From a virus: a stretch of 30,181 nt of DNA. The notes beneath the pieces were generated by a model. It made no database searches, was not told the origin of the DNA, and saw only the letters and a list, made by a program, of their open reading frames with translations. The position numbers and the translations under genes are program-made. Of the stretch, positions 1 to 26,910 are shown one piece after another (positions within the stretch are counted from its first letter, which is position 1; every line of letters begins with the position of its first letter). The DNA lies in IMG/VR virus record IMGVR_UViG_3300005910_000021, positions 1 to 30,181 of that record; one strand, written 5' to 3'.

Positions 1-729
1 ACCATTTTTTATCCTTCTAATAGTTGAAGTTGATACATTAAATATAATTGATATATTTTTGGTGGTTTCATTATTTTTTACTAACTCTTTAATTTTTCTC
101 ACTTTTTCATTATTTAATTTAGAATTAGGATGATTTTCTCCTGTAAGTTTTTCAGAAATTTTATTTAAAGTTTCTTTAGTATGTTTTTTACCATAAAAAG
201 GATTCTTCTTACCAATTCTTTGTTCTCTCAATTTTTGTTTAGTTTCTTCTGAAAGTTTTGTACCAATTTTCACTTCAGACCATTTCTTTAATTGATTTTC
301 TGTAAGCTTTCTCCCTTTATTAGCTTTACTTACTATATCTTTTACTCTTTGACTTCTTTTTCTACCATACATACCATTATTTTTACCTTTAGATTTCAAT
401 CCTATTTTTCTTTTAGATTCTTCGGAATGTTTAAATCCATGATTTCCTTCTCCACCCCAAGTTAAATTATATCCATTAGGTTTGAAAGAATTATACTGTT
501 TGATATAATGGTATTCCATCTCATCCATTTCTTCTTTAGATGAACATTCCTCTATAATTTCCCATTTAAAATTATCAAAACCATATTTACGAATAGCTCT
601 ATAAAAATAAAAATCTGTACCTGCATTTGCTCGTTGTAAATGTGATTTTTTTCTTTCAGATAAAGGTTTGATAGTTTGACCTATATAACATTTACCATTA
701 ATCTCATTTATAGTTTTATAGATAATCAT
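1..729 (-). CDS. GIY-YIG homing endonuclease, C-terminus cut by window edge
   Basis: The open frame runs from ATG at 729 to base 1 without a stop, so 243 residues are present and the C-terminus is outside the window. The N-terminus has the GIY-YIG nuclease signature (IYK near residue 3, then CYIGQT near residue 13). It is followed by NUMOD3-type DNA-contacting repeats (GKNNGMYGRK, GKKNPFYGKKH, GENHPNSKLN). A helix-turn-helix-like segment near residues 205-243 reads NISIIFNVSTSTIRRIKNG. This is the architecture of free-standing phage homing endonucleases of the Seg/I-TevI type, which cut unoccupied alleles to spread themselves. It starts 1 nt after the stop of the upstream zinc-ribbon gene. 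No intron is visible around it. Confident on family; target site unknown. Confidence 0.9.
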   Translation of the reverse strand, partial: MIIYKTINEINGKCYIGQTIKPLSERKKSHLQRANAGTDFYFYRAIRKYGFDNFKWEIIEECSSKEEMDEMEYHYIKQYNSFKPNGYNLTWGGEGNHGFKHSEESKRKIGLKSKGKNNGMYGRKRSQRVKDIVSKANKGRKLTENQLKKWSEVKIGTKLSEETKQKLREQRIGKKNPFYGKKHTKETLNKISEKLTGENHPNSKLNNEKVRKIKELVKNNETTKNISIIFNVSTSTIRRIKNG

Positions 730-730
730 T

Positions 731-991
731 TCAATCCGATCCAGTTGGTTTGACATTTTGACCATTAGCTCTTGCTTGTTTATAAGCATCCCAATAGTGA
801 CTGCTATTACCCTTCCAGTCGCACATATCTGTGCGATTATTATACTTCAATTCAAAACGTGACTTTGATATCAATCTATCCATTGCTTTCTTACATTTTG
901 GACAGGTATGCTTCTCATCCATTTCTTTTCCAAACTCTAACTTTTCTTCATAACAACCACAATCATTACATAAATACTCGAAAATAGGCAT
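731..991 (-). CDS. FmdB-type zinc-ribbon protein
   Basis: 86 residues. The start MPIFEYLCNDCG, a first CxxC (CNDC) and a second CxxC (CPKC, near residue 31) match the small FmdB/putative regulatory zinc-ribbon family, whose members begin MPxYEYxCxxCG. Two Cys pairs would bind one zinc ion. The tail, rich in Asn and aromatic residues, has no recognisable motif. Family members are widespread in bacteria and phages, with no firm biochemical role. It sits between a lipoprotein gene and the GIY-YIG gene. Family call is solid; function unknown. Confidence 0.75.
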   Translation of the reverse strand: MPIFEYLCNDCGCYEEKLEFGKEMDEKHTCPKCKKAMDRLISKSRFELKYNNRTDMCDWKGNSSHYWDAYKQARANGQNVKPTGSD

Positions 992-1011
992 TTCTTTCTT
1001 CTCCTTACAGT

Positions 1012-1530
1012 TTATATATCTCTAATTTCTAAAACCTTGTTAAATTTCTTCTTAAAACTATCCTTAGCTTTACCTTCCAATTTCTTACCCTTATAGCATT
1101 TTGTACCCTCATCAAATAAATATAAGTATACATCACCACCATATAAGTAAGAAAACCCCATTGGCATTCCTTTGTAAACCAAAAATACAGCAACGGGAAT
1201 CTTACAAGGACTTTTAGGATTTTTATAATACAATTCAAATGCAGAAGGTCCAACCAGAATAATATACTTATCTAACACTATCCAGTTTCTTGTTATTGTT
1301 TGTGGATCAATATACCCCTGATATGAATACTCCCCAAAAGAAGACTTAAAACTATCTTTTGGGGCTATGTATATCTGCTTTTCTCTTATTTTTTGTTTTT
1401 CCTTTTCATTTTTTCCAGATGGTACCTCAATAATATTACCATCTTTTTGAAATACATAATCAGTCGATGTTTTGATACAACCAAACATTACTATTAACAA
1501 CCCAACCAATAATATTTTACTTATTCTCAT
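1012..1530 (-). CDS. Putative phage lipoprotein (possible outer-membrane spanin)
   Basis: 172 residues. The N-terminus is a lipoprotein signal: positive start (MRISK), hydrophobic stretch LLVGLLIVMFG, then Cys18, the expected lipidation residue. The -3/-2 residues (M, F) are not ideal lipobox residues. The mature part is mixed alpha/beta with many Lys, Tyr and Asp and has no recognised domain. Its ATG overlaps by 14 nt the end of a gene for a membrane-anchored coiled-coil protein. Overlap of an inner-membrane coiled-coil gene with a following lipoprotein gene is the classic i-spanin/o-spanin layout used in lysis of Gram-negative hosts. At 172 residues it is long for an o-spanin, so this role is inference; a generic cell-surface lipoprotein is the alternative. 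Confidence 0.65.
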   Translation of the reverse strand: MRISKILLVGLLIVMFGCIKTSTDYVFQKDGNIIEVPSGKNEKEKQKIREKQIYIAPKDSFKSSFGEYSYQGYIDPQTITRNWIVLDKYIILVGPSAFELYYKNPKSPCKIPVAVFLVYKGMPMGFSYLYGGDVYLYLFDEGTKCYKGKKLEGKAKDSFKKKFNKVLEIRDI

Positions 1531-1819
1531 TTCTTTTCATCCTCTCATCAATTCTTATAAGGATATCATTCATTACATCTTGTTTCAATTTTATTTTCTC
1601 CACATCTGTTTGAACTTTCCCTATTTCTTTTTGAACTTGCTGGTTTCTATCATCTCTTTCTTCCTGTATATCTTGTTTGTTTTCAATAACATCAGCAGCT
1701 AAACTTGTAACACTATAAGAACTATGTGTAACCCATGTACCCCAACCAAGTATAGACATAAATAATGCAATGACTATAGCCACCATTATCTTTTTTAGTA
1801 TTCCGTTTTCGGCTTTCAT
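1517..1819 (-). CDS. Membrane-anchored coiled-coil protein (possible inner-membrane spanin)
   Basis: 100 residues. A short charged N-terminus (MKAENGILKK) is followed by one transmembrane segment (about residues 11-30, IMVAIVIALFMSILGWGTWV). The rest, residues 45-100, is highly charged and heptad-like with Gln, Glu and Lys, predicting a coiled coil outside the membrane. N-in single-span topology plus a coiled coil matches i-spanins, and the next gene encodes a lipoprotein in an overlapping frame. The ribosome binding site (GAGAGG) lies inside the last codons of the upstream gene. A holin-like or other phage membrane protein is possible; no endolysin gene is visible nearby to support a lysis cassette. 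Confidence 0.6.
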   Translation of the reverse strand: MKAENGILKKIMVAIVIALFMSILGWGTWVTHSSYSVTSLAADVIENKQDIQEERDDRNQQVQKEIGKVQTDVEKIKLKQDVMNDILIRIDERMKRNENK

Positions 1820-1822
1820 TTC

Positions 1823-2272
1823 TCATAACCTCTCAAATGTGTAATATATCATGAAGGTGTTTTCAATATATTTATCGGTAAGTCTGTAATGTAATTCCTT
1901 TTCAATCCTATCTGAAAATTTATCATATAATTTCTCTCTTTTAATGAAACCACAGTATTGCCATTCTTTTGGCTTCACTTTACTGATAAATTGTTTTAAT
2001 GCACTTAGTGCTCCTGCAAAGGCTTTTAATGGATGTCCTGTATGTGTGTCACCGGTAACAATAGTACCATCCATATCAGCACCAAATGTGAAATGATATA
2101 TACCACTTATCTTTGCTACCTTTGCTCTGTATTTCAGACCATCAAATTGCCATACCCATTTATTCTTTCCATCAGACATTGCATTTATAGATTCTAATGA
2201 TTCATCAAATTCATTACACAATTCTTCAACATATAGATCATATAATTCATCTATATGTTGTTTAAATTTCAT
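1823..2272 (-). CDS. Hypothetical phage protein
   Basis: 149 residues, not recognised. It has a mixed composition and no membrane segment. The middle (about residues 40-80) is beta-rich, with WVWQFDGLKYRAKVAKI and a following FTFGADMDGT; the end is helical. The first residues (MKFKQHIDE) loosely resemble the capsid-targeting N-termini seen in other genes here, which is weak evidence for a virion protein. The ATG overlaps the stop of the upstream gene by one base. Confidence 0.6.
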   Translation of the reverse strand: MKFKQHIDELYDLYVEELCNEFDESLESINAMSDGKNKWVWQFDGLKYRAKVAKISGIYHFTFGADMDGTIVTGDTHTGHPLKAFAGALSALKQFISKVKPKEWQYCGFIKREKLYDKFSDRIEKELHYRLTDKYIENTFMIYYTFERL

Positions 2273-2526
2273 TATTCCTCATCTTCTATAGGTAAATCAA
2301 TAACTATTTGTCTAATTTTCTTTAAATTGGTAAGTATGGCTTTTGCTTCCTTCTTAGTTATTGTTATGTTATCTTTGTCAGCTGATTTTTCAATTTTACC
2401 TAATATTTTAGCTGCATATGGGTCCATAAGTATATTCAATATAACATGCGATAAATTTTCTTTCTGCTTCCGTGTATACTTAGGATCTTCCGTTATCTTT
2501 TCCATTAAATATTCTCTTAGTTTCAT
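2272..2526 (-). CDS. Hypothetical small helical protein
   Basis: 84 residues, Lys- and Glu-rich and predicted all-helical, with no recognised domain. The first residues, MKLREYLMEK, fit a T4-type capsid-targeting pattern with a possible prohead-protease site after the Glu of LME. An AAAGG ribosome binding site lies 8 nt before the ATG. It ends in an acidic tail (EDEE). It may be an internal head protein, by inference only. Confidence 0.6.
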   Translation of the reverse strand: MKLREYLMEKITEDPKYTRKQKENLSHVILNILMDPYAAKILGKIEKSADKDNITITKKEAKAILTNLKKIRQIVIDLPIEDEE

Positions 2527-2531
2527 AATTG

Positions 2532-3341
2532 TTACCTTTCTAAACCACCATTTATAAAATTGTTTAAATAACCAGTAATATTGCCAATGTTAGGAAGTAT
2601 CATCGCTTCCTTGTTATTAAAATGGTACATGCCACCTTCTCTATACTGACCAGGATTATTACCCCAAGAGAATACGGGCACCTTCTGTAGATTGCATATA
2701 GTTGTCCAATAACTTAAAGGACACACCACTACTTTAGCATATGATATGGCACCTATTATATATTTCCAACCATTTTCAAAATAATCTATATATTTAAATA
2801 TTTCATTCTCATTTACTAAGGGTGTATTCATATCACCTATAACAACGAACCCCTTATCTTTTATAGAATTGTAAAAAATGCTCATTTCATCTTCGTCACC
2901 ATAAGGTATGAAAATGCGTAAATTTTTTAGTTCTTCAGGAGTATTTATGTTTTTTAAATCTATATGTTCAAATGTTTTATTATATATGGGGTATTGTATT
3001 ACCGACTTTGTGTAATTTATACCCATCACATCTATATTTTTTTTAGAACAACCCTCTCTTTCTGATATGGATATCTTTAGATCTTTAACGAGAATATTAT
3101 AATTTTTTAAAGATAATAACCTATGTATATAACCTTCCTGTCCTAATTCATCTCTAGATAATTGTTTATATACAGGTAGTTGTTCGTTATCAAAGGTCTT
3201 ATATAAAAAGGAGCGATTAAAATGTGTGCTAATGTATGTTTTATCTGGCTGTAGAACTTTATGTATCCATGTTATGTATGGTCTAAAGGTAAGTATTTCT
3301 TGTTTAAAAGATCCAACATAAGGCCCTAAAATCAATGTCAT
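2532..3341 (-). CDS. Glycosyltransferase family 9-like protein
   Basis: 269 residues. The C-terminal half has the shape of GT-B sugar transferases of the heptosyltransferase (GT9) type. A hydrophobic strand (FVVIGDMN) is followed by a helix, then GAISYAKVVVCPLSYWTTICNL and VPVFSWG, corresponding to the family's donor-binding segment where a Ser or Tyr sits before an Ala/Leu-rich helix and the strand VPVV. The N-terminal half (GPYVGSFKQEI) would bind the acceptor. Phages use such enzymes to modify DNA bases, virion proteins or host surface sugars; the substrate is not visible here. Its ATG overlaps the previous stop by one base. The family call rests on motif shape only. Confidence 0.5.
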   Translation of the reverse strand: MTLILGPYVGSFKQEILTFRPYITWIHKVLQPDKTYISTHFNRSFLYKTFDNEQLPVYKQLSRDELGQEGYIHRLLSLKNYNILVKDLKISISEREGCSKKNIDVMGINYTKSVIQYPIYNKTFEHIDLKNINTPEELKNLRIFIPYGDEDEMSIFYNSIKDKGFVVIGDMNTPLVNENEIFKYIDYFENGWKYIIGAISYAKVVVCPLSYWTTICNLQKVPVFSWGNNPGQYREGGMYHFNNKEAMILPNIGNITGYLNNFINGGLER

Positions 3342-3814
3342 TATATAACATATCCCTCTTCACATATGATAACATTACCATTCCAAAGGTTCAGTATTTC
3401 TTCTTTGTCACAGAAGATATCGTCATTTATGGATATAACCTCCAAATTCTTCAACACATCTTCAAAACAATAATTCAATATAAAGTGCAGTTCGTAAGTA
3501 CTTAAATTTGAAAAATCTAATAGTACCTTGTTATTCTTTCTGAAAAAGGATATAATACCAACACCTTTCTGGTTCTGTATATAATACTTTTTAGACGTGT
3601 ACTTCAGAATATAATTATAGATTCTTATGTTATCTCCTATAATGAACCTATTCGTTTTAGGGTAAAAGGACAAAACTTTCTTTACCTTTTCCTCTGTTGG
3701 ATTAAAGAATGCTAATTTGATCAAATGAACCCTTGATATACCTCTCAAATCCTCATCGTATAGATTATCCTCCGTGATTGTAATAAAATCTGTTCCTATA
3801 CTGGTAATTCTCAT
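3341..3814 (-). CDS. Hypothetical protein next to primase
   Basis: 157 residues, not recognised. It is rich in Ile, Asn, Tyr and Phe with alternating strands and helices and no membrane segment or metal-binding motif. It starts in an ATGA overlap with the primase stop, with AGGAGG inside the last primase codons (Gly-Gly-Lys), so its translation is probably coupled to primase. Position suggests a replication or accessory role, without direct evidence. Confidence 0.6.
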   Translation of the reverse strand: MRITSIGTDFITITEDNLYDEDLRGISRVHLIKLAFFNPTEEKVKKVLSFYPKTNRFIIGDNIRIYNYILKYTSKKYYIQNQKGVGIISFFRKNNKVLLDFSNLSTYELHFILNYCFEDVLKNLEVISINDDIFCDKEEILNLWNGNVIICEEGYVI

Positions 3815-4848
3815 TTACATTTTCCTCCTAATAATTTCAGTCTCCATGGGGAAATCTTAATTTTGGTATAAGCTTTAGTGCTTGAGTATGAATTGTCTAT
3901 AACAAACTTATATATATTATTTATACCAGAACCAACATAAAATTCATTTATATCCTTATATTTATCATTAGAAAACAAAAAGAATTTGGTATTAGGAGGG
4001 GTATTGTTAGAATCTATAAGTTTAAGTATGGATTTTAGACCAGCTTCATCGTTATCAAGGCATACTATCAAACCCTTATTTGTTAATTGTGATATTTCAT
4101 TCAGAAAGTCTTTGGATATTTCACTACCCAAGCAGGATGTTCCTTGACTTCCAATAGTAGCAGCATCAATCAGACCTTCACATATAATTATATATTTGGA
4201 ACTATCAAATTCATGCTTGTTATATATAATACTGCCTTTAGCCAATGTGGGGTTCTTATATTTGGGTAGAATACTATCAATCATTGCTCTTGCTTGGAAG
4301 TAAACAATATGATTATCTTTATCGTATATGGGTATTATAAATCTCCCTTGATAATCACCTTTGTAAGCAACATGTACATTAAGATGGGATATTTTCCTAT
4401 CTCTTATGAATTTTCTTAGAGCTTTCTGATAGATTAGTTTCATATAACCATCAACTCTTTCATCAACAGATATACAGTCATTCAGTATATAATCGTGATA
4501 TTCATATTCATATTCTATTTCCTTAATTATTTTTTCTTTCTTGCGATTGGAAAGTTTTTGGATTAGATAGTCTGGGTCGTATGATTGGAGATCTTTAAGG
4601 GATTGGGCTATGGATATTCCTTTAAGAGTGGAATAAAGAGTAAGAAATGAACCAGATTCATTACAGTTAAAACAATGCCATAAAATTTGCCCCCCATTAA
4701 AATCCATATTAAATCGTTTCTTTGATTTAGATTTCTTTGAATCTCCGCAAAGTGGGCATCTCGATAACACATGGGTACCATTTTTAGAGAGTTTCACACC
4801 TTCCATATATTGATAACAAAATTCAATCATAACATCTAAAGCTATCAT
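3811..4848 (-). CDS. DNA primase (zinc finger plus TOPRIM)
   Basis: 345 residues from ATG at 4848. It makes the RNA primers for lagging-strand synthesis. The N-terminal zinc finger has CPLC at 31-34 and CFNC at 59-62, as in DnaG/T7 gp4 CHC2-type fingers. The TOPRIM catalytic domain has Glu224 (CEGLIDAA) and the Asp265/Asp267 pair in LDNDEAG, which bind metal. RFIIPIYD at 169-176 matches the primase core. It lacks the DnaG helicase-binding tail and any helicase domain, so it resembles the primase half of phage primase-helicases. The upstream TTG at 4854 is a worse start: an AGAGG site sits 7-8 nt before ATG 4848. It follows an HNH gene directly (TAATG). Confidence 0.92.
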   Translation of the reverse strand: MIALDVMIEFCYQYMEGVKLSKNGTHVLSRCPLCGDSKKSKSKKRFNMDFNGGQILWHCFNCNESGSFLTLYSTLKGISIAQSLKDLQSYDPDYLIQKLSNRKKEKIIKEIEYEYEYHDYILNDCISVDERVDGYMKLIYQKALRKFIRDRKISHLNVHVAYKGDYQGRFIIPIYDKDNHIVYFQARAMIDSILPKYKNPTLAKGSIIYNKHEFDSSKYIIICEGLIDAATIGSQGTSCLGSEISKDFLNEISQLTNKGLIVCLDNDEAGLKSILKLIDSNNTPPNTKFFLFSNDKYKDINEFYVGSGINNIYKFVIDNSYSSTKAYTKIKISPWRLKLLGGKCK

Positions 4849-4862
4849 TAACAAACCTCTAT
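4846..4862 (-). promoter_or_regulatory. Primase ribosome binding site inside HNH gene end
   Basis: The last HNH codons (Ile-Glu-Val-Cys-stop) read ATAGAGGTTTGTTAATG, so AGAGG within the HNH reading frame lies about 7 nt before the primase ATG. Stop and start share one A (TAATG). The second HNH gene has the same arrangement at 10130-10147. Confidence 0.8.
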
Positions 4863-5366
4863 TCTTAATTGTTCATACCTGCATCCATCTTTTTGATGCA
4901 CTTTCTTATGGCAAGTATAACATAAAGTAATGCAATTGTCAATATCAGCAGACTCTAATGGATTGGTACTTACTGGATAGATATGGTGGCAATGGAGAGT
5001 ACCGGTAGAACCACACTTAACACATTGATATCCATCCCTTTTCAATACTAATTTTTTTAATTCTGGTTGAACTTCTCTATCCAATTTCAACCATTCTAAT
5101 CTTCCTGCTCTTATTGCATCTTCTCTCATTAATTGTTCAGGTGATTTACCATATATAGAACAGGAATATCTACATTCATCAGAACAATAAAAACGAGATT
5201 CATAATTATAATTACCTTTGAGATATTGAGACCTATTATTGGCATTATAATCTTTTGGTATAAACCATTTATTACATTTAAAACACCTTACTTCTAATAT
5301 ATTCTTATCTTTTGGACTTCTTCTTACCTCTTCACACCATTCTATCTGAGAGGCATAAGTATCATA
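4848..5366 (-). repeat. Duplicated HNH C-terminal segment, copy 1
   Basis: The 519 bp encoding residues 95-266 of the HNH gene are closely similar to 10135-10659. Long runs are identical, for example the part encoding IYPVSTNPLESADIDNC. The similarity includes the stop-proximal codons that make the next gene's ribosome binding site. Confidence 0.85.
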
Positions 5367-5648
5367 AAGAGGTATATGTTTTTTCCATAATTCACCTTTC
5401 CAATTACTATTTTTTTCACCTTTTTGGTTCTTTGATTTTTTTAATTTTCTTTCTTTTGTATTATATCCTTTACCAGCACAAATTTTAGAACAATAATAAC
5501 CTACTTTATTACTTACTTGTGCTAAAAATGGTTCCCCACAAATTTCACATTTCTCTTTGTAAATATAATATACATATCTCTTATCATGCCATTTACCGGT
5601 CTTTTTATTATATTTTAACCCTTCTAAATTATCCCAGCATATTTTCAT
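4848..5648 (-). CDS. HNH homing endonuclease (copy 1)
   Basis: 266 residues. The C-terminal HNH domain has zinc Cys pairs C209/C212 and C243/C246, the HCHH core at 219-222, Asn238 and His247/His251. The centre (95-200) carries further Cys pairs (RCFKC, FYCSDEC). The N-terminus has a separate Cys pair (CEIC, CSKIC) and an NSNWKG element typical of NUMOD-type DNA-binding parts. From residue 95 to the end it is nearly identical to the HNH protein at 10135-11133, while the N-terminal parts differ completely. This is the modular pattern of mobile homing endonucleases: shared nuclease, swapped targeting head. It is wedged directly before primase. Ribosome binding site AAGGAG precedes the ATG. Confidence 0.93.
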   Translation of the reverse strand: MKICWDNLEGLKYNKKTGKWHDKRYVYYIYKEKCEICGEPFLAQVSNKVGYYCSKICAGKGYNTKERKLKKSKNQKGEKNSNWKGELWKKHIPLYDTYASQIEWCEEVRRSPKDKNILEVRCFKCNKWFIPKDYNANNRSQYLKGNYNYESRFYCSDECRYSCSIYGKSPEQLMREDAIRAGRLEWLKLDREVQPELKKLVLKRDGYQCVKCGSTGTLHCHHIYPVSTNPLESADIDNCITLCYTCHKKVHQKDGCRYEQLRIEVC

Positions 5649-5686
5649 AATTAAACTCCTTACTAAGTTAAATTGTTGTGGAGTAA

Positions 5687-5710
5687 GGCTTAGTGAGTAA
5701 GCACTAAGCC
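5687..5710. other. Perfect 9-bp hairpin upstream of HNH gene
   Basis: GGCTTAGTG at 5687-5695 pairs perfectly with CACTAAGCC at 5702-5710 around a 6-nt loop. It lies in an 84-nt non-coding gap between the stop at 5733 and the HNH ATG at 5648. On the minus strand it is followed by TTACTCC rather than a T-run, so it is not a standard terminator. It could protect the mRNA end, regulate HNH translation, or mark the edge of the inserted element. Confidence 0.6.
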
Positions 5711-5732
5711 AAGGTGATCAAACCCTGTCCTC

Positions 5733-5912
5733 CTATTCCTCGAAAAAAATCCCTTTCCAGCATTCATAATCAAAAGGGGTTAATAAGGCTGCCTCTTCAT
5801 ACGTTAAGTCCTTGAATTTCTTATACTTACAGAATATCTTACCATTCTTTATTTTACAATGGAAACAGTTTATACAAAGAGGTGTTGTGTTTTGTTCTTT
5901 TCCATCTTCCAT
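5733..5912 (-). CDS. Small Cys-rich protein
   Basis: 59 residues from ATG 5912 to TAG 5733. Cys13, Cys16, Cys19 of CINCFHC, Cys28 in the following IFCKYKK, and a later Cys (YECW) suggest a zinc-binding knuckle. TLTYEE-like spacing and FDYECWKG resemble small phage zinc proteins, but no family is recognised. The ATG follows the stop of the HTH gene directly (TAAATG), supporting coupled translation. Confidence 0.6.
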   Translation of the reverse strand: MEDGKEQNTTPLCINCFHCKIKNGKIFCKYKKFKDLTYEEAALLTPFDYECWKGIFFEE

Positions 5913-6248
5913 TTACTTGTTCTTTAGGTGTACCATACGTTTCTTTCCATCATTCTCTATTTCTTTTCGTATATCTTTAGGAAATAATCGGATAAATTTA
6001 CTCATATCGTCATCATCTACTTTGAATATTTGTGACATAACGACTGCTGTTTCAAAAGCATCCCATTCCTTATCTAACTTTCTTGTTTCTTTATACACCT
6101 TCTTCAATGCCCTTTTCAATGTTTGGGATACCGCTTGTCTGCTAATACCCAATTCCTTAGCAATCTCAGCACCGGTCTTTTGTTCTGTAAGTGCTTGAAT
6201 ATTATACTCTCTTTGCTCTTCTTCCTTTATAAATGTTCTAATTCCCAT
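5913..6248 (-). CDS. Small helix-turn-helix protein, sigma-region-4-like
   Basis: 111 residues. Residues about 20-53 contain TGAEIAKELGISRQAVSQTLKRALKKVY, a clear helix-turn-helix of the sigma-70 region 4 type: the AEIAKELGIS turn and the recognition helix RQAVSQTLKRAL. The rest is charged and helical. It lacks the sigma region 2 that would bind the -10 element, so it is a DNA-binding regulator or terminase-small-subunit-like protein rather than a full sigma factor. The ribosome binding site GGAGGAG lies within the end of the upstream gene, which it overlaps by 11 nt. Confidence 0.75.
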   Translation of the reverse strand: MGIRTFIKEEEQREYNIQALTEQKTGAEIAKELGISRQAVSQTLKRALKKVYKETRKLDKEWDAFETAVVMSQIFKVDDDDMSKFIRLFPKDIRKEIENDGKKRMVHLKNK

Positions 6249-6435
6249 TGTTTTTCTCCTCCAATAAATGTTTTCTTATGTATCCAGTGTTTTTCACAGG
6301 TGTTTTATTCTTCCATACATATTTTATTTTCTCTTTATTGTATTTATATCCTTGGGTATCTGTTAGAGTATTTTCATTTATATTTACAATTCTTACAATT
6401 TTATCTTTACCGCATTCATCAACCATTACATACAT
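6238..6435 (-). CDS. Hypothetical small protein
   Basis: 65 residues, not recognised. It is Lys- and Asn-rich; the first half could be a small beta barrel or KOW-like fold (VRIVNINENTLTDTQGYKYN), the second half a basic helix. An AGAGGTT ribosome binding site precedes the ATG by about 9 nt. Its 3' end overlaps the HTH gene start, suggesting co-translation. Confidence 0.55.
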   Translation of the reverse strand: MYVMVDECGKDKIVRIVNINENTLTDTQGYKYNKEKIKYVWKNKTPVKNTGYIRKHLLEEKNNGN

Positions 6436-6439
6436 TATA

Positions 6440-6649
6440 TTACAACCTCTTCATATATATTACAACCTTTTCATCTTCTGGATGAACAACACCTCTATCA
6501 TCAACATAATTAGACACTCCATTTATAACGGAATATGGCTCATCTGGTTTTCCTTCATTTTTAGATTTATCGATTTTGAAGGAAAACTTTGTGTATAAAT
6601 CATGTAAATCACCACTTATATTATTACCTTTCCTATAATAGCAAAGCAA
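6440..6649 (-). CDS. C-terminal fragment of a frameshifted acetyltransferase-like gene
   Basis: Up to 69 residues, opening at a TTG at 6649 inside the upstream frame, with no convincing ribosome binding site for it. The content (LYTKFSFKIDKS, EPYSVINGVSNYV, VVHPEDEKVVIYMKR) looks like the end of a GNAT-type fold: a helix with FYxKxGF-like sequence followed by strands. The gene at 6616-6945 ends with NGAKRLDCFA, the strand that normally comes just before. Reading the two with a -1 shift near 6630 gives one coherent protein (DCFA then YYRKGNN). It is therefore either the second half of a programmed frameshift product, a broken gene, or a sequencing-error split. Confidence 0.5.
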   Translation of the reverse strand: MLCYYRKGNNISGDLHDLYTKFSFKIDKSKNEGKPDEPYSVINGVSNYVDDRGVVHPEDEKVVIYMKRL

Positions 6650-6945
6650 TCAAGTCTTTTAGCACCATTTGATACTGCTGATCTCATTAAGGCATTCGCA
6701 GAAGACTTTTGTGATGAAAATAATGATACAAGTTCATTACTATGTGCTATACAGTATCCTGATGAATTGTTCTTACCAAGATAACACTGCATCTTCTTAT
6801 ATTCAGATACACTGTATATTGTCAATGTATCAAGACCTTTTGCATTATCCCCTCTTGATATATCATTACCCCTTATTTTTGATACAGCTTGATGAAATAC
6901 TCTGCCAGTTACCTGTTTGAAATTGTCCTCATCCTCTGGATTCAA
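6616..6945 (-). CDS. N-terminal part of acetyltransferase-like protein, frameshifted
   Basis: 109 residues. The TTG start at 6945 has a strong GAGGGGG ribosome binding site 7 nt upstream. The section SSANALMRSAVSNGAKRLDCFA matches the GNAT-like layout (small-residue loop, helix, strand) in which a C-terminal FYxKxGF part must follow; here the frame stops soon after (IIGKVII). That missing part is found at 6440-6649 in the -1 frame. No standard X XXY YYZ slippery heptamer is visible at the joint. As a separate gene it would be a truncated fold. Substrate unknown. Confidence 0.55.
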   Translation of the reverse strand: MNPEDEDNFKQVTGRVFHQAVSKIRGNDISRGDNAKGLDTLTIYSVSEYKKMQCYLGKNNSSGYCIAHSNELVSLFSSQKSSANALMRSAVSNGAKRLDCFAIIGKVII

Positions 6946-7039
6946 CCGTTGACCCCCTCATCAATTGCTTGGATGATAATTTTCCAATATCCTTAAAAGC
7001 TTCTAATATCTCATTAATTCTACGCAATACTCCATTCAT
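6929..7039 (-). CDS. Possible 36-residue bridging ORF
   Basis: ATG 7039 to TGA 6929, 36 residues (MNGVLRRINEILEAFKDIGK and a short tail), predicted helical. It overlaps the amidohydrolase end by 20 nt and the start of the acetyltransferase-like gene by 17 nt, and fills the otherwise empty 74 nt between them. GGAGG lies 12 nt before the ATG, rather far. It may be a real small protein or serve to couple translation into the TTG-start gene. Confidence 0.35.
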   Translation of the reverse strand: MNGVLRRINEILEAFKDIGKLSSKQLMRGSTVESRG

Positions 7040-7679
7040 AATCTCTTATTTCCTCCAATAATGTATCAATGATATTTTCGAGATCCTTAGTGTATATATT
7101 TCTATTTATCTCAATCATCATGGATTTCACATTATTGTTTTCATGATGTATAGATGGAATTATAGTACCTTCATATGGATAGTTGATATCAATGGTCAAT
7201 CCATTCTTTTGGAAATGTTTCTCAGCCATTTCTATTAATATATCTGGGGTATGTGTCTCATTCATTCCTATACATACATGAGGGTCGGATGGATCATTGG
7301 GAGCAAATGTATGACAATCAATTATTATAACATATTCATAGTAACATAACTGTCTATTAGTGGTTACGTTAAATTTTGTATGATAGTCACGATACATTTC
7401 CATTATATCTTCATCGGGTGTTATTCGCTTGATATCATTACCAAAGGTATCCTTTCTATAAATTATACCCTGATCCTTTGCTTCCATTGGATCATTATGT
7501 TCTAATCTTTCTACATCACAAACGAACCTACTGAGAGGGAAACTGATAATATCACATCCCCAATAATTGAACAATTCATTTACATAAGTGTCAGTAAGAT
7601 TATCAAGATTATCTTGCTCGTTATCAAGCTCTATATGACCACCAAGCTCTCTTGATGAATGGGGTATATGTAGTATCAT
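7020..7679 (-). CDS. N-formylglutamate amidohydrolase family protein
   Basis: 219 residues. The start ILHIPHSS is the hallmark of the family (HxPHxG/S), followed by LTDTYVNEL, SRFVCDVER, IIIDCHTF and late MMIEINR. The His, Asp and Glu residues would bind the catalytic zinc of this carboxypeptidase-like fold. The cellular enzyme hydrolyses N-formylglutamate to formate and glutamate in histidine breakdown. In phages the substrate is unknown; cleavage of a peptide or amide bond in the host wall or a nucleotide-linked compound are guesses. It follows the reductase gene by 14 nt, so both are probably co-transcribed. Family call is strong, phage function open. Confidence 0.85.
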   Translation of the reverse strand: MILHIPHSSRELGGHIELDNEQDNLDNLTDTYVNELFNYWGCDIISFPLSRFVCDVERLEHNDPMEAKDQGIIYRKDTFGNDIKRITPDEDIMEMYRDYHTKFNVTTNRQLCYYEYVIIIDCHTFAPNDPSDPHVCIGMNETHTPDILIEMAEKHFQKNGLTIDINYPYEGTIIPSIHHENNNVKSMMIEINRNIYTKDLENIIDTLLEEIRDYEWSIA

Positions 7680-7693
7680 ATTTTACCTCCTTT

Positions 7694-9913
7694 CTATCCA
7701 CACCTGCTATAACCACAATTACAGGAAGCACATCCTTCTATCATCATTATAGGCATTCCACACTCTGGACATTTTTCAGTATCCGATGAAAAACCATTGT
7801 ACTTGTTATCACTATAATACCTGTCTAACAACTGTGCTAATCCGTCTGGTATGCTTAGTATTTGAGTAGGTTTGAGGTCAGTTTCATCTAATCTCGACCA
7901 TACGGGCTTATCACTATTTATGCCTATAAGTGTTTTGACTATATTTTTTACAGATACCCCACCTTGTAATGCTATAGATACTACCCTTCCCACAGCCTCA
8001 GATAAAGTATTCATTACTTGTCCTGACTTACCAATTTGAAGGAAAAGCTCCACAGGTTTTCCATTTGAAGAGCTTACTGTGGTGTATAGTGTTCCATTGC
8101 CTGTATCAATCTTAAATACATCAGCAGATAGCTTAGCCGGTCTAACAAATTCTTCATGCTCATTCGTTGTGGGGGAGAATGTAACTGGTTGATTCTTCTT
8201 ACTTCCATCCCTATATACGGTAATACCCTTTAATCCCTTCTCGTAAGCATATTTATATAATTCTGAAATGTCCTCCTTAGTAGTTGATTCAGGGAGATTT
8301 ATAGTACTACTTATTGCTGTACTACAATACTTTTGTAATGCTGATTGAACATCTATCCTATCCTTTGGTTTTATATCATGTGCCGTTACAAACACTTCTC
8401 TTACTTCTTTAGGTATACCTCTAATACCTTTTAGAGAACCACCATTATTGAATATTTTTTCAAGCAAATCATCAGTGTACCATGGTTCATTTTGAAATCT
8501 CTCCTCAAATACCTTGTTAACAAACATCATAGTGGAACCGTCAATGAGATTTTTTTGAAATACTAAACCAAAACAAGGTTCTATGCCATATGAAGCATCA
8601 CAGGAAATTGCAGTTGTTCCAGTAGGTGCGCATGTAGTGTGTTGAGAATTTCTAACACCAAACTTTTTAACTTTTCTCATTATTAATTCATCGTCATCAC
8701 AAAAGGTTGATAGTATTTCTTCTACATCTTCTTTAAAATCATTATAATTGTGAAATGGTTCTTTTTCATCTGCCAGTTCAGCACTTTTATCAATAGAAGC
8801 ACTTGTTATTGTTTTCATAATTTTGGATGCAAATTCTTTACCTTTAAGACTATCATACTTAATATCAAGAGTGAACATAGCATCGGCTAAACCCATTATA
8901 CCTATACCTATTTGTCTATACTTTTTAGATACATCTTCAAATCTTTCATCAGGATAATCCATTACATCAATAGAATTATCCATTAGTACTGTTATATCCC
9001 TTGATACATTATATAGATCCGTCCAATGCATTTTATTAGATACTGTAAACTTATTTACATCAATAGCTGATAGGTTACAACATCCGAAAGGGATTAAAGG
9101 CTCCTCACCGCAGGGATTAGTACATTCAATAAGGAACTTACTTTTCAAAGTATTGAATTTATTTATAATATCTATGAACATCATTCCTGGGTCAGCGGAT
9201 TTCCAGCTCATATAAGCAAGTCTATCCCACAATTCTTCTGCATTTATTTCACTTACTTTAATACCATTAGACGGTGAATGTAATGGAAATGATATACTGT
9301 CATCTAATGCTTCCATAAATTTATCAGTAATTGCAACTGATATATTCATATTGGACAACCTACCATCCTCTTCTTTACAGTTTATAAACTCCATTATATC
9401 AGGATGCCATACAGGCATATTACAAAGTATAGCGGCTCTTCTTACTCTACCACCAGACTTAGTTGTTTCACCTACAGCATCGTAAAGACGCATAAATGTT
9501 ATAGGTCCCGAACTTTTACCTTCAGGTGGTTTTTCTTTTTCACCTTCATATATATAAGCATTTCTTTCTCTAAGGTTACCTATGGGAATACCTATTCCTG
9601 ACCCAAATTGAAATACCTTTCGCGACACATTTACAGTATTATAGATACTCTCCATACTATCTTCCAATGATACAACATAACACGCGCTGAATACTTTATG
9701 TTTTGTTCCTGCATTTAAGAAAACTGGGGTATTCGGTCGCCATACATTGTTGGCTAATAAACCATAGGCTATTTCTTCTTCCTCTTTATTTGTGGCGAAC
9801 TCTTTTGCTACCCTTCTAAATGTATCCTTCATTGTCTCATTTTGAAATGAATACAAATTATTAAAAATTCGTATTGCATTATCACTTAGTCCAAATTCGT
9901 TTTCATCATTCAC
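7694..9913 (-). CDS. nrdJ: Class II (adenosylcobalamin-dependent) ribonucleotide reductase
   Basis: 739 residues. It converts ribonucleotides to deoxyribonucleotides using coenzyme B12. Visible features are NTPVFLNAGT (61-70), redox Cys78 in FSACYV, FQFGSGIGIP (101-110), and NPCGEEPL (266-273), where Asn266, Cys268 and Glu270 are catalytic. The redox partner Cys lies in GCCNLSAI (277-284), and APTGTTAIS binds phosphate. The C-terminus ends in a Cys-rich tail (CPECG, EGCASCNCGYSRCG) that would re-reduce the active site. No small NrdB subunit and no ATP-cone are present, consistent with class II. The start is GTG 9913, directly after the upstream TAA. It gives the phage oxygen-independent dNTP supply provided the host has B12. 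Confidence 0.95.
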   Translation of the reverse strand: MNDENEFGLSDNAIRIFNNLYSFQNETMKDTFRRVAKEFATNKEEEEIAYGLLANNVWRPNTPVFLNAGTKHKVFSACYVVSLEDSMESIYNTVNVSRKVFQFGSGIGIPIGNLRERNAYIYEGEKEKPPEGKSSGPITFMRLYDAVGETTKSGGRVRRAAILCNMPVWHPDIMEFINCKEEDGRLSNMNISVAITDKFMEALDDSISFPLHSPSNGIKVSEINAEELWDRLAYMSWKSADPGMMFIDIINKFNTLKSKFLIECTNPCGEEPLIPFGCCNLSAIDVNKFTVSNKMHWTDLYNVSRDITVLMDNSIDVMDYPDERFEDVSKKYRQIGIGIMGLADAMFTLDIKYDSLKGKEFASKIMKTITSASIDKSAELADEKEPFHNYNDFKEDVEEILSTFCDDDELIMRKVKKFGVRNSQHTTCAPTGTTAISCDASYGIEPCFGLVFQKNLIDGSTMMFVNKVFEERFQNEPWYTDDLLEKIFNNGGSLKGIRGIPKEVREVFVTAHDIKPKDRIDVQSALQKYCSTAISSTINLPESTTKEDISELYKYAYEKGLKGITVYRDGSKKNQPVTFSPTTNEHEEFVRPAKLSADVFKIDTGNGTLYTTVSSSNGKPVELFLQIGKSGQVMNTLSEAVGRVVSIALQGGVSVKNIVKTLIGINSDKPVWSRLDETDLKPTQILSIPDGLAQLLDRYYSDNKYNGFSSDTEKCPECGMPIMMIEGCASCNCGYSRCG

Positions 9914-10132
9914 TTATGTTCTCATCCCCCTATCAAAATATTCTTCTATTGATTCATCCATATCTTCTGCACTCTTTGCTGCGTTCAATAGTTTATAAGC
10001 TAAAGCCTTTGCTTCTTTGGATGTCAAGTCATACCATTCAAAGGAATCACCATTCCTTTCTTGATATAATAAAACATCAGGTCCCTCACCCCATGTACAA
10101 ACAGCTTTCCAACTATATGGTTTCTCTTTCAT
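9914..10132 (-). CDS. Hypothetical small protein between HNH and reductase
   Basis: 72 residues from ATG 10132 (MKEKPYSWKAV). A longer reading from 10171 would overlap the HNH frame, and its ribosome binding site would be wrongly spaced. An AGAGG site in the HNH tail serves 10132. The protein has an N-terminal beta part (WKAVCTWGEGPDVLLYQ) and a helical C-terminus (SKEAKALAYKLLNAAKSAED). Not recognised. It ends directly before the reductase GTG, so it may be co-translated with it. Confidence 0.65.
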   Translation of the reverse strand: MKEKPYSWKAVCTWGEGPDVLLYQERNGDSFEWYDLTSKEAKALAYKLLNAAKSAEDMDESIEEYFDRGMRT

Positions 10133-10147
10133 TATTAACATACCTCT
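10130..10147 (-). promoter_or_regulatory. Ribosome binding site inside end of second HNH gene
   Basis: The last HNH codons read ATAGAGGTATGTTAATAATG. AGAGG is part of the Ile-Glu-Val coding sequence, and the next gene starts at ATG 10132, 2 nt past the HNH stop. An internal ATG at 10141 is too close to AGAGG to be used. Confidence 0.75.
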
Positions 10148-10659
10148 ATTTTTAATTGTCCATACCTGCATCCATCCTTTTGATGAACTAACTTATGGCA
10201 AGTATAACATAAAATTATGCAATTGTCAATATCAGCAGACTCTAATGGATTGGTACTTACTGGATAGATATGGTGGCAATGAAGATTATTTTTAGAACCA
10301 CACTTAACACATTTATATCCGTCCCTTTCAAGTACTAACTTTCGGAGTTCTGGTTGAACTTCTCTATCAAGTTTCAACCAACCTAATCTACCGGCACGAA
10401 TAGCATCTTCTTTCATAAGTATTTCAGGTGCCTTACCATATACAGAACAAGAATGCTTGCATTTATCTGAACAATAAAAATTATGTTCACCTCTTACATT
10501 TTTGCTACCTTTTAATGATTGTATTCTACTATTAATAATTTTTAAACCTGGTATAAACCATTCATTACACTTAAAACACCTTACCTCCAATAAATCTATA
10601 TTTTTCATATTCCTTCTAACTTCTTCACACCATTCTAATTGAGGAGCATAAGTATCAAA
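10135..10659 (-). repeat. Duplicated HNH C-terminal segment, copy 2
   Basis: The 525 bp encoding residues 159-332 match 4848-5366. Long stretches near the stop are identical at the DNA level. The upstream halves of the two genes show no visible similarity. Confidence 0.85.
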
Positions 10660-11133
10660 GGTAGGTAAGTTATTTTTACAATAAAATTTTGCATTTTTAA
10701 GAATTGTTTTCCTACCTTTTCTTAATGATTCTAACCTTTCATCAGATTCGTTATAACAAATAGGGCATCTTTGTCCTTGCTGAAAACTATTCCATATCAT
10801 ATTAAATATATGACCTTTAAAACATTTAAATTCCAATTTTGTAACATTATTTATATAATTTAAGGAAAGGCATTCATATTGTCCTTTGGTCATTCTTTTA
10901 ACTTCCTCTTTAATATATAAAAGACCTAATTTTGACCTATTGGAGGCATTTATACCTTTACAAATAGGACATCTAACCCCTTGTTGGAAATCATTCCAAC
11001 TAACCTTGTATTTATGACTTTTTGGACATTTTAATTTTATTTTATTATGTGAATCAATATATGATTTACTTAATAATTTATACCCTTCTTTCTCTATTTG
11101 CCCCTTTACATAATCATATGTCAATTTCTTCAT
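10135..11133 (-). CDS. HNH homing endonuclease (copy 2)
   Basis: 332 residues. Residues 159-332 are nearly the same as residues 95-266 of the HNH protein at 4848-5648, including the HNH core (HCHH at 285-288, Asn304, His313, His317) and its zinc Cys pairs. The N-terminal 130 residues differ. They hold two tandem zinc-finger repeats (about 18-59 and 86-127), each with a strand, KCxxxH, then SWNDFQQG or IWNSFQQG and a CPIC pair. Such repeats are DNA-binding modules in several homing endonucleases. The gene lies between thymidylate synthase and the reductase group, a favoured site for homing genes. Its start lies 4 nt after the thymidylate synthase stop. Confidence 0.93.
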   Translation of the reverse strand: MKKLTYDYVKGQIEKEGYKLLSKSYIDSHNKIKLKCPKSHKYKVSWNDFQQGVRCPICKGINASNRSKLGLLYIKEEVKRMTKGQYECLSLNYINNVTKLEFKCFKGHIFNMIWNSFQQGQRCPICYNESDERLESLRKGRKTILKNAKFYCKNNLPTFDTYAPQLEWCEEVRRNMKNIDLLEVRCFKCNEWFIPGLKIINSRIQSLKGSKNVRGEHNFYCSDKCKHSCSVYGKAPEILMKEDAIRAGRLGWLKLDREVQPELRKLVLERDGYKCVKCGSKNNLHCHHIYPVSTNPLESADIDNCIILCYTCHKLVHQKDGCRYGQLKIEVC

Positions 11134-11136
11134 AAT

Positions 11137-11910
11137 TTATTTTCCTAAGCGATCACGAACTACATCTAACTGAAAATCATAGCAATGCAATTTTAATGAG
11201 GAAAAGGCTAATATACCCACTTTTACTCCTAATTCATTAGCCATATATTCTTGTAGCATTACAATTCCTCCTATATTAACAGGGAAAGCTCCCCATAGGT
11301 CCCAGGAACGGAAATAGATATGAAAATTAAGATAGTATTCATCTTTATCTTTAACAATATGTGTATCAATTCCACGTAAGCACGGACTTGTTCCTCGTTC
11401 TGTCTCCTCCTTGTAAGGTATATCATATGCCATGTTGCTCTCAGGATAACCCACCTGAATATAGCAATGATTATTACCAAATCCTTTCTCTTTATAGTGA
11501 TCGATACACCATTGAATTTGATTAGGAACTACGACCCACTGTCCATCTCCTCTTTCACCTTCTTCATTAACCATCCTCAAAGATGGTACCTTATAACCAC
11601 CACCTGTAATCCATGTTGCGTATTTATAATGCTCTCCAAGGGAAAGACTACCATCCATAAGATAATTGACGAAGTAATTCTCAATGTCAACATCAGTAGT
11701 TACAGGTGGTATACCTTCAGGTAAAATAGGTGATAAAGGTCTTGTAGTTGGATATTGTATAACACCGGAAACATAATTAAATTCAAGCCTTTTGGAACCT
11801 TGATAACTTCCTGAATCTATCTTATTTATATTTCCAAATTGATTTATTTTTTCCAATAAACTATACCAGGTGGAATCTATCGTTTTTTCTTCTACAAATA
11901 CTGCTTTCAT
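11137..11910 (-). CDS. Thymidylate synthase family protein
   Basis: 257 residues from ATG 11910. It methylates dUMP to dTMP, or may hydroxymethylate a pyrimidine nucleotide. Key residues match E. coli ThyA in kind and spacing: Cys177 (TSPCLRGI) as nucleophile, Arg201-Ser202-x-Asp204, Asn212 eight residues after the Asp, and His242-x-Tyr244 thirty residues after the Asn. The N-terminal third differs from bacterial ThyA and resembles the shorter, archaeal/phage-type members, so dCMP hydroxymethylase or another base-modifying variant cannot be excluded. The stop of the preceding gene overlaps the start as ATGA, with AAGGAGG in its last codons. Works with the class II reductase in dNTP supply. 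Confidence 0.85.
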   Translation of the reverse strand: MKAVFVEEKTIDSTWYSLLEKINQFGNINKIDSGSYQGSKRLEFNYVSGVIQYPTTRPLSPILPEGIPPVTTDVDIENYFVNYLMDGSLSLGEHYKYATWITGGGYKVPSLRMVNEEGERGDGQWVVVPNQIQWCIDHYKEKGFGNNHCYIQVGYPESNMAYDIPYKEETERGTSPCLRGIDTHIVKDKDEYYLNFHIYFRSWDLWGAFPVNIGGIVMLQEYMANELGVKVGILAFSSLKLHCYDFQLDVVRDRLGK

Positions 11911-12305
11911 ACTACCTCCTTCTCCCATTTATCTAAAATTTTATTTAAACTTCTCTCTGATATAAATTTAAACCATTCGACCCCATATTCATTATAATTC
12001 TGTAACTCCTTTTCTAAATCTTCAAAAATGGCCTTAATAATCTTTTGTATTAAATCATTTCTATAACGATATGATAATACTTCCTTAATTAAAAGAGGGC
12101 CTTTTATAACCAAATCATTAAGTATATCTTCAGGGTCGTCAATACAAGAAGATTCTAAAATTTCCAGTAACTCTTCAAGCTTTTTAATTGTATAGTGTTC
12201 CTTCATCCTATTTCTTTCCCTTTCCCTTTCTATACGATATGCAGCAGTATCTCTCGCTGCGATAATTCTCACCTTAGTAATTGGTCCATCCTCAAATTCC
12301 TTCAT
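11907..12305 (-). CDS. Hypothetical helical protein
   Basis: 132 residues, not recognised. It is almost all helical with a very charged region RIERERERNRMKEH near residue 23. Its last codons (Lys-Trp-Glu-Lys-Glu-Val-Val) contain the ribosome binding site of thymidylate synthase, and the stop overlaps that gene's ATG, so the two are probably coupled. Starts in a 4-nt overlap with the upstream zinc-ribbon gene. Confidence 0.6.
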   Translation of the reverse strand: MKEFEDGPITKVRIIAARDTAAYRIERERERNRMKEHYTIKKLEELLEILESSCIDDPEDILNDLVIKGPLLIKEVLSYRYRNDLIQKIIKAIFEDLEKELQNYNEYGVEWFKFISERSLNKILDKWEKEVV

Positions 12306-26186: not shown

Positions 26187-26696
26187 TTAAAATACCCCCA
26201 ATTCCTTTAGTGTTTCATTAATTCCAAGTTTCTTCAATTTCAAATTCAAAAACTCTGAAATGGTTGGCTGATAGATCTTTACATGAGGGAACATTTTAGC
26301 TTCTATGCATGATTTATGACCTTTCTTCAGGTTGCATTGCTTACATGAGGCAACACAATTTTCAAAAGTTGACTTACCACCTTTAGATTTAGGGATAACA
26401 TGGTCAATGGTCAATTTCTTAGATTCCTTACCACAGTATACGCATTTGAAACCATCCCTTACTAAAACATTGCGCTTGGAAAACGGCACTTTAGTCTTGA
26501 AAAGGGTTCTAATGAATTTTACTAATTTCAAAACTAACGGAATCCTCATTACCACACTTCCATCGAAGTTCTTAATGATTCTCTCAGAGTACTTTAATAC
26601 TTCTGTTTTACCTTTAACCATTAAGCAAACAGCTTTCTGCCATCCAATTGAACCAAGGTAGCTATAATCTGCATTTAAAAGTATTATATTGCTCAT
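26187..26696 (-). CDS. HNH endonuclease family protein
   Basis: 169 residues from ATG 26696, with GGGGGGT 6 nt upstream. The HNH core has Cys pair CVYCGK (about 90-93), KLTIDHVIPKSKGGKS with the catalytic His, Asn (FENCVASCKQCN) and the Cys-rich finish. The N-terminal half (MSNIILLNADYSYLGSIGWQ, then WQKAVCLMVKGKTEVL) is typical of short, bacterial-type HNH proteins rather than the modular homing genes at 4848 and 10135. It may process DNA in the phage or be a solitary mobile nuclease. Confidence 0.85.
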   Translation of the reverse strand: MSNIILLNADYSYLGSIGWQKAVCLMVKGKTEVLKYSERIIKNFDGSVVMRIPLVLKLVKFIRTLFKTKVPFSKRNVLVRDGFKCVYCGKESKKLTIDHVIPKSKGGKSTFENCVASCKQCNLKKGHKSCIEAKMFPHVKIYQPTISEFLNLKLKKLGINETLKELGVF

Positions 26697-26910
26697 TTTC
26701 AACCCCCCATTTCATTAATTCTTCTAACATAGACTCTATTCTATCTAATTGTTCTTTATCTTCCCTTGTTAAAACTCCATATACAGATCCACCCTGTTCT
26801 ATTGATAAACGCTGTTTTGCTGTGGTACCATTCGTTATCATATAGCTACTATAATCTTCATCTCCATTGGTGACTCTTAAATATTTAGTAGTTTCATCTA
26901 AAATTTTCAT
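26662..26910 (-). CDS. Hypothetical small protein
   Basis: 82 residues. An N-terminal beta part (KYLRVTNGDEDYSSYMITNG) is followed by a coiled-coil-like helix (REDKEQLDRIESMLEELMK). Not recognised. Its 3' end overlaps the HNH gene by 35 nt and carries that gene's ribosome binding site. Confidence 0.55.
   Translation of the reverse strand: MKILDETTKYLRVTNGDEDYSSYMITNGTTAKQRLSIEQGGSVYGVLTREDKEQLDRIESMLEELMKWGVENEQYNTFKCRL

Follow-up and report, generated by a model that had tools for sequence, protein, structure and literature searches.

In the phages of the T4 type, several homing endonuclease genes, namely, I-TevI, I-TevII, I-TevIII, segB and Aeh1 mobE, are described in the accessible parts of two reports as carrying RNA structures that hide the ribosome-binding site (RBS) and hold down translation on some transcripts (PMC2988022, PMC3014915). 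Exchange of modules among phage homing endonucleases, including fingers of the CapR/DUF4379 kind, is also already on record in the accessible parts of the literature (PMC10448857; PMC3943268). Here, we describe two HNH homing-type endonuclease genes, HNH1 and HNH2, and a leader RNA that precedes HNH1, in a 30,181-base virus record (IMG/VR IMGVR_UViG_3300005910_000021, the whole of which is referred to below as the window) that also carries genes for ribonucleotide reductase (RNR), a thymidylate-synthase-like (TS) protein, a primase-like protein and transfer-messenger RNA (tmRNA) (Table 1). Judging from sequence comparison, the exchange of heads in the family of HNH1 and HNH2 is real but of the kind known from those parts of the literature (PMC10448857); the neighbouring leader RNA is the larger find and the part worth following.

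The reading that we favor, with a probability of roughly 0.8, is that HNH1 and HNH2 are mosaics of exchangeable parts, that the leader of the HNH1 type most likely masks the RBS, and that HNH2 is an older, partly overwritten paralogue. The parts would be a C-terminal nuclease half, an N-terminal head for DNA binding, of which there are at least six kinds, and, in the case of HNH1 and many such genes of unrelated nuclease families, a leader RNA that ends at the start codon. HNH1 would be read through from the upstream genes of the tight block in which it lies; its leader is predicted to fold as a three-way junction and to pair, by its third loop, with the region of the Shine-Dalgarno sequence, and this pairing most likely would prevent translation of the endonuclease from read-through transcripts for as long as the structure stays closed.

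Table 1. Features of the window discussed in the text
Feature	Position	Strand	Basis and remarks
HNH1 leader RNA, about 88 nt, ending at the HNH1 ATG	5646..5733	-	1 pattern match (0 expected); covariance model, 88 bits
HNH1, 266-aa HNH homing-type endonuclease	4848..5648	-	type I head (MKICWDN, zinc knuckle, NSNWKG) and shared nuclease half
HNH2, 332-aa HNH homing-type endonuclease	10135..11133	-	tandem CapR/DUF4379-like (CPIC) head and shared nuclease half; no leader RNA found upstream
Shared nuclease half, HNH1	4848..5366	-	Cys-rich domain and HNH
Shared nuclease half, HNH2	10135..10659	-	Cys-rich domain and HNH
Probable gene-conversion tract, part of HNH1 copied into HNH2	4844..5034; counterpart about 10131-10321	-	shift in site pattern
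Primase-like gene	3811..4850	-	TOPRIM, CHC2 zinc finger; open reading frame listed from TTG at 4854
TS-like gene, before HNH2	11137..11928	-	sequence match
RNR gene, downstream of HNH2	7694..9913	-	sequence match

The predicted fold of the HNH1 leader comprises the stems P1 (GGAG/CTCC), P2 and P3 (GGCTTAGTG/CACTAAGCC) around a three-way junction, and a pseudoknot in which the P3 loop CTTACT pairs with AGTAAG, a stretch that overlaps the Shine-Dalgarno sequence AAGGAG. The 80-odd nucleotides (nt) upstream of the HNH1 start codon are kept in a sister phage (contig 3300024259_000036; loci L005, L017, L048 and L062), with one base lost on each side of one stem. A 21-base leader pattern matched 24 of 175 loci, in many of them directly before other endonuclease genes, and 10 stretches in the viral collection; a wider pattern, which found 25 stretches, gave 24 distinct copies when all loci are counted. 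Nineteen of these, retained without regard to the genes behind them, align over the whole span from GGAG to the ATG (alignment A4). The remaining five (L186, L187, L195, L196 and L199) are GC-rich and without the P3 stem or the pseudoknot, and were judged to be chance matches. In 17 of the 19 copies, at least 6 nt of the P3 loop are perfectly complementary to the stretch before the copy's own start codon, compared with 11 of 342 crossed combinations; the summed complementarity of the 19 copies is 120, a value that none of 10,000 permutations reached, the permutation maximum being 95.

A covariance model (R1) that includes P1-P3 and excludes the pseudoknot was then run on the loci and on 39 whole records, 27 of which have a match at an E value of up to 0.1, with up to six matches per record. 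Among 49 distinct copies, 42 show at least 6 nt of complementarity between their own loop and RBS, compared with 108 of 2352 mismatched combinations (0 of 5000 permutations); because the model that found these copies did not include the pseudoknot as a pair, the test is nearly independent of the search for the 30 copies beyond the first 19. This set counts each copy once and excludes two matches whose E value exceeded 0.1 (L110 6332 and L177 3387); it also excludes L110 1818, as the twin of L109 7315, and any copies known from the whole records alone. The stems themselves are conserved as pairs: in alignment A5 (58 matches, 48 distinct rows), which was fitted to the structure so that its counts lean toward it, 96.5% of the P1-P3 cells are paired, compared with 41-59% when the partners are slid by 1-3 columns, and double changes occupy 147 cells, compared with 33 in shuffles, with 14 of 17 pairs having one. 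RNAalifold alone gives double changes in 6 of 15 leader pairs, and P1 takes the covarying forms GGAG/CTCC, GAGG/CCTC, AGAG/CTCT and AGGG/CCCT. The leader family, then, has a strand that is complementary to the RBS of the gene it precedes and that is kept by covariation.

That the P3 loop would mask the RBS of HNH1, so that the leader represses translation, is proposed by analogy with the leaders of the T4-type homing endonuclease genes. As far as the accessible parts of the reports go, those genes also have, just upstream, an RNA structure that pairs with the endonuclease RBS (PMC2988022, PMC3014915), but they have hairpins of individual genes, whereas here one three-way junction with a loop-RBS pseudoknot recurs across several nuclease families. 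Structure can also act in the opposite direction, given that, according to the part of the source available, the T4 genes 25 and 38 use it to aid initiation (PMC3014915); the leader might accordingly enhance translation by presenting the RBS, or else be a processing site or a small ribozyme. We consider such roles improbable because the paired strand overlaps the Shine-Dalgarno sequence in most copies and because the precedents among T4 homing genes, in the accessible part of that report, are repressive (PMC2988022).

A different question is whether the leader is a fixed mask. Conservation is much higher in the junction letters GACA, CTTG and ACTCC than in the stems, as would be the case in a binding core, and this leaves room for a ligand or a protein as the opener. 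A switch that senses a ligand, in the manner of a riboswitch, or that is bound by the endonuclease is a reading that we find rather unlikely, although not negligible: no ligand is known, and the fact that different endonuclease families share one core speaks against binding by the protein that each gene encodes.

Several observations weigh against the favored reading. Seven of the 49 copies fall short of 6 nt of complementarity: three could not be parsed by the script, L181 reaches 6 nt only by way of a G-U pair, L091 stands before a broken gene, and L071 and L112 are short. L190 and L197 retain the pseudoknot without a clear Shine-Dalgarno sequence, and the L197 leader precedes a gene without an endonuclease match. 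The single-sequence fold of the window leader is weak (z -1.72 relative to shuffles), and many of the copies come from related contigs and from few samples, so that they are not fully independent. A further model, R2, found no convincing copy in the phage records T4, SPO1, ValKK3, phiN3, KLB2, phiSA_BS1 and LR756501, the matches in three of these seven whole records (E 0.04-0.09) being judged by eye to be due to chance. Finally, only 20 of 71 members of the nuclease family have the leader; the single leader that the covariance model finds in the window is that of HNH1, and because HNH2 and most family members are without it, the leader is not required by every such gene. By head class, it precedes 17 of 41 genes with type I heads, none of 14 with other named heads or without a head, 2 of 10 assigned to the NUMOD3-only class and 1 of 6 in the class 'other'.

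The leader is shared by genes of several nuclease families. The 19 pattern-found copies are followed by 15 endonuclease genes or fragments, two broken frames (L091 and L194) and two genes without a match (L177 and L197). Among the 49 copies, in a survey biased by the fact that most loci were fetched as HNH relatives, the leader stands before members of the present HNH family, before GIY-YIG genes (L189 by Pfam, L079 by phage matches, L010 and L084 by similar sequence), before homing endonucleases of the PHROG 655 type (L190 by profile, L009 and L192 by similar sequence, with NUMOD3 in L009), before EndoVII-like (L181, L189), HNH_3 (L194) and PHROG 3339 (L096) endonucleases, and before genes in which a CPIC or type I head is joined to a PHROG 5104-like end (L014, L189). 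Two more copies are found in a contig of a metagenome-assembled genome, one of them preceding a frame of 496 amino acids (aa). The clearest pair consists of the leaders of L009, which precedes an HNH-type gene bearing a fragment of a type I head, and L010, which precedes a GIY-YIG gene: these are identical in 83 of 88 positions (94%), compared with 58% over 88 nt upstream and 51% over 150 nt downstream, values that we assume to represent the AT-rich background. On these comparisons, the leader boundary at the start codon appears to be a sharper module edge than the edge between head and nuclease proposed in the original prediction, and leader, head and nuclease behave as though they were exchangeable parts. 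We tentatively suggest that this pseudoknotted RNA family might move between unrelated homing endonuclease families as a cassette, perhaps as an infection-stage or ligand-dependent switch, such that the nucleases would consist of a switch, a targeting head and a blade.

Some copies have unusual surroundings. In L197 (9880-9963) and L232, a leader with a 7-nt pseudoknot and no clear Shine-Dalgarno sequence is followed by a gene of 162-170 aa without an endonuclease match. In L194, a stretch of about 4.4 kb (173-4608) has three matches to group I introns, and two leaders of this locus have no long frame behind them; two copies are embedded in the P8-loop insertion of such introns, and one more sits on the 3' border of a partial match to an intron. 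The leader is not part of the catalytic core of these introns, and there is no intron match near HNH1. In L008 (9571-10607, minus strand), a headless nuclease half of 188 aa is accompanied by a separate type I head of 91 aa with a leader upstream, which could be a split or decaying gene, and a single 33-kb record, G006 (L009, L065, L067 and L070-L074), has eight nuclease-half matches and six leaders, decayed pieces included. A candidate leader in L239 (20.1 bits) is doubtful.

Known RNA families gave no counterpart of the leader. Of the 4227 models of Rfam 15, only tmRNA matched the window at the gathering score, and none matched positions 5600-5790 at E values up to 5; in 11 further leader loci, Rfam gave only group I introns, all of them in L194. 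A BLASTN search with one leader against phage records returned short pieces in eight records (E 0.3-4) that do not look like an element. A published description of a shared pseudoknotted leader was not found in the one open-access collection covered, so that its absence from print is unproven.

As for the two genes themselves, both open reading frames are present on the minus strand where they had been predicted. The heads, too, are as originally described, with a single zinc knuckle and NSNWKG in HNH1 and two CPIC repeats in HNH2, and are unrelated by all the comparisons that we made. The description of the nuclease halves as nearly identical was overstated: over the 172-174 residues of this half, protein identity is 75% (174 columns), and DNA identity is 79% over 551 nt. 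The similarity is nevertheless far beyond chance, given that HNH2 as a query recovers HNH1 with an E value of 2e-92. The direct DNA repeats begin at 5387 and 10680, within about 20 nt of the predicted breakpoint at 5366/10659, and extend to about 4844 and 10131; the edge of homology lies at about codon 88-95 of HNH1 and codon 152-159 of HNH2, with nothing detectable upstream. Both proteins belong to the HNH superfamily, matching PF01844 at 32.9 and 27.3 bits (cut-off 21.4), and the cysteines and histidines are invariant across 17 aligned family members; apart from the HNH models, no Pfam model matched the Cys-rich domain and HNH that make up the nuclease half. The structural model of HNH1 (mean predicted local distance difference test, pLDDT, 76.8) was of little use for classification, its best match in a PDB fold search being the GVE2 HNH endonuclease (5h0m, E 0.024), with nothing below 0.001. 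HNH1 residues 12-258 weakly match the HNH endonucleases of PHROG 1271 (E 2e-14), and no place covering 80% of HNH1 was found among 50,697 phage records.

The HNH1 knuckle has zf-FCS as its best Pfam match, below the cut-off. The HNH2 head matches PHROG 559 (E 2e-26) and falls below the cut-offs of both CapR (20.4 bits; cut-off 24.2) and DUF4379 (20.2; cut-off 24.5), which a related head in L014 (9173-9574) passes. Since both heads are Cys-rich and occupy the same position, they might be imagined to be one domain diverged past recognition, with no exchange at all; this is extremely improbable, considering that they match different families (PHROG 559 and 1271 types) and different Pfam zinc folds, and that one kind of head recurs on distant branches of the nuclease tree as well as on a different nuclease.

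The nuclease half is common to a large family of environmental phages. An alignment of this half (A1, 17 rows), used to scan viral contigs and genomes, yielded 76 viral and 17 genome loci and, after removal of duplicates, 99 open frames, 71 of which span the full nuclease half; the 28 partial or weak ones were left off the tree. Among the 71 there are at least six kinds of heads, classed by regular expression and hence roughly, with some of the 'NUMOD3-only' heads visibly misfiled (e.g., L112_4653 and L121_2389): type I zinc knuckle (41), NUMOD3-only (10), other (6), EndoVII-like zinc (4), tandem CPIC (3), VCPVT (2), RRED (2) and three further labels with one each. On the nuclease tree, the bootstrap of which is not fully settled (correlation 0.977), tandem-CPIC heads occur at three separate places, with three changes, all forced by starred branches; the VCPVT and RRED heads, each likewise at more than one place, require two changes each, forced in the same way. 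The module exchange put forward in the original prediction is supported in this wider family because one nuclease half bears at least six kinds of heads, several of them at separate places on the tree; that it took place within one genome is not supported, since the part of the HNH2 nuclease half that precedes the tract considered below does not group with HNH1.

In four other loci (L169, L172, L174 and L175), three to five repeats of the CPIC type are joined to a different partner, a LELDIW.P...IEFNG.YWHS-like domain that we take to be of the Vsr/EDxHD type, a name that no search returned. The closest parallel to these heads is found in the T5orf172 homing endonucleases of ICP1 and its relatives, which, in the accessible part of the source, likewise have repeated CPxC fingers of CapR/DUF723/DUF4379, exchangeable heads and module recombination (PMC10448857); unlike in those proteins, the fingers are here attached to an HNH nuclease half and, elsewhere among phages, to the LELDIW..IEFNG..YWHS nuclease. 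The modular homing endonucleases of the NUMOD type (the I-HmuI and I-TevI class) similarly have, by the accessible part of that account, a nuclease tethered to separate DNA-binding motifs (PMC3943268). NUMOD3 is present in some members of the HNH family and in a GIY-YIG gene of the window, as in that class, but the Cys-rich and HNH half described here differs in matching no Pfam models beyond those of HNH. NUMOD3 (PF07460) itself has no match in HNH1 or HNH2, although the relatives L063 and L065 do match. The GIY-YIG gene (1-726, minus strand), which is cut by the window end, has three NUMOD3 motifs, repeats that are similar to the heads of certain members of the HNH family, and a third HNH gene (26187-26702, minus strand; PHROG 16726) is similar to HNH1 and HNH2 in the HNH core only.

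The history of the two copies is better explained by gene conversion than by a recent swap. The identity of HNH1 and HNH2 is uneven, mostly 57-87% per block of 10 codons and 87-100% across the last 50 codons; at the DNA level, it is 93% in these last 50 codons and 75% in the preceding 122, and a second internal break, stronger than the one at the head, lies near nt 615 of HNH1 (window position about 5034). The sister phage has, in the same place, an HNH1 orthologue that is 75% identical and has the same head, and this gene served as the third sequence in a conversion test. The sites at which HNH1 agrees with HNH2 and those at which it agrees with the orthologue number 26 and 67, respectively, before the break and 32 and 8 after it (0 of 5000 permutations), and third codon positions alone give 8 and 28 before and 24 and 6 after (0 of 5000 permutations). 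Across the break, the identity of HNH2 to the orthologue rises from 69% to 79%, whereas that of HNH1 to the orthologue is nearly steady (84% and 81%), so HNH1 is the likely donor. In a comparison of the part before the break, HNH2 is placed only inside a group of 17 rows, not beside HNH1. Most likely, then, the nuclease half of HNH2 is that of an older paralogue whose last approximately 190 nt were recently overwritten, probably by HNH1, and because only this part is recently shared, the likeness of the two genes is in part a product of gene conversion.

A single recent head swap between two copies of one gene within this genome, which would have given HNH2 a new target, might have been preferred in view of the different heads, the 93% identity of the last 50 codons and the grouping of the full nuclease half of HNH2 with HNH1 and its orthologue (99/86). 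We regard it as quite improbable: over the part upstream of the converted 3' tract, HNH1 and HNH2 are not sisters, and HNH1 shares more with its orthologue in another phage (84%) than with HNH2 (75%). Once the converted tract is set apart, a swap in place is no longer the simplest reading, and we rejected it as such. The interval between TS and RNR in the sister phage is occupied by an HNH gene that joins a type I head to a nuclease half of a third lineage, so that this place looks like one spot colonized by different mosaic genes rather than one gene re-headed in place.

HNH1 and HNH2 are, on the strength of sequence comparison, apparently free-standing genes for HNH endonucleases of the homing type that were inserted into a conserved block of TS, RNR, helix-turn-helix (HTH) and primase genes. 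Presence at the two places is variable, as is typical of homing genes: both are filled in the sister phage (L017) and free of HNH family genes in L018 and L021. In L018, TS (end 7973) leads directly into RNR (from 7992), and g5733 (end 10710) into primase (from 10710); L021 has other sequence between TS and RNR, and other sequence is also found at both places in L019, L024 and L026, which are without an HNH family gene there. The block is only partly visible in L020, where the primase gene is cut by the contig end, and in L022, L023 and L025. Homing activity of the two proteins and a link between head and target are inferred.

The fit of the insertions into the block is tight: the HNH1 stop codon overlaps the likely primase ATG (TAATG), and the HNH2 start lies 4 nt past the TS stop codon. 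Both HNH genes terminate in AGAGGT.TGTTAAT with an ATG close behind (4848-4870 and 10131-10155, minus strand), and their last codons may act as the Shine-Dalgarno sequence of the next gene, as noticed by eye. In two relatives, the RNR gene itself could be interrupted: the open frame of L025 (1-3114) has 1037 aa, compared with 739 in the window, and could contain an intein, and in L023 (2183-6170) RNR lies in two frames 1.3 kb apart, which could contain an intron or an inserted gene.

Homing endonuclease genes spread by cutting DNA, so survival of the phage requires that the timing of their expression be under control. The conversion within this genome implies that near-identity of paralogous phage nucleases need not date their split. 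If a portable RNA control indeed stands before unrelated nuclease families, then the control itself is a swappable part and would be a marker for such genes. The shared leader makes it testable whether one RNA fold silences different nucleases alike, and what opens that fold.

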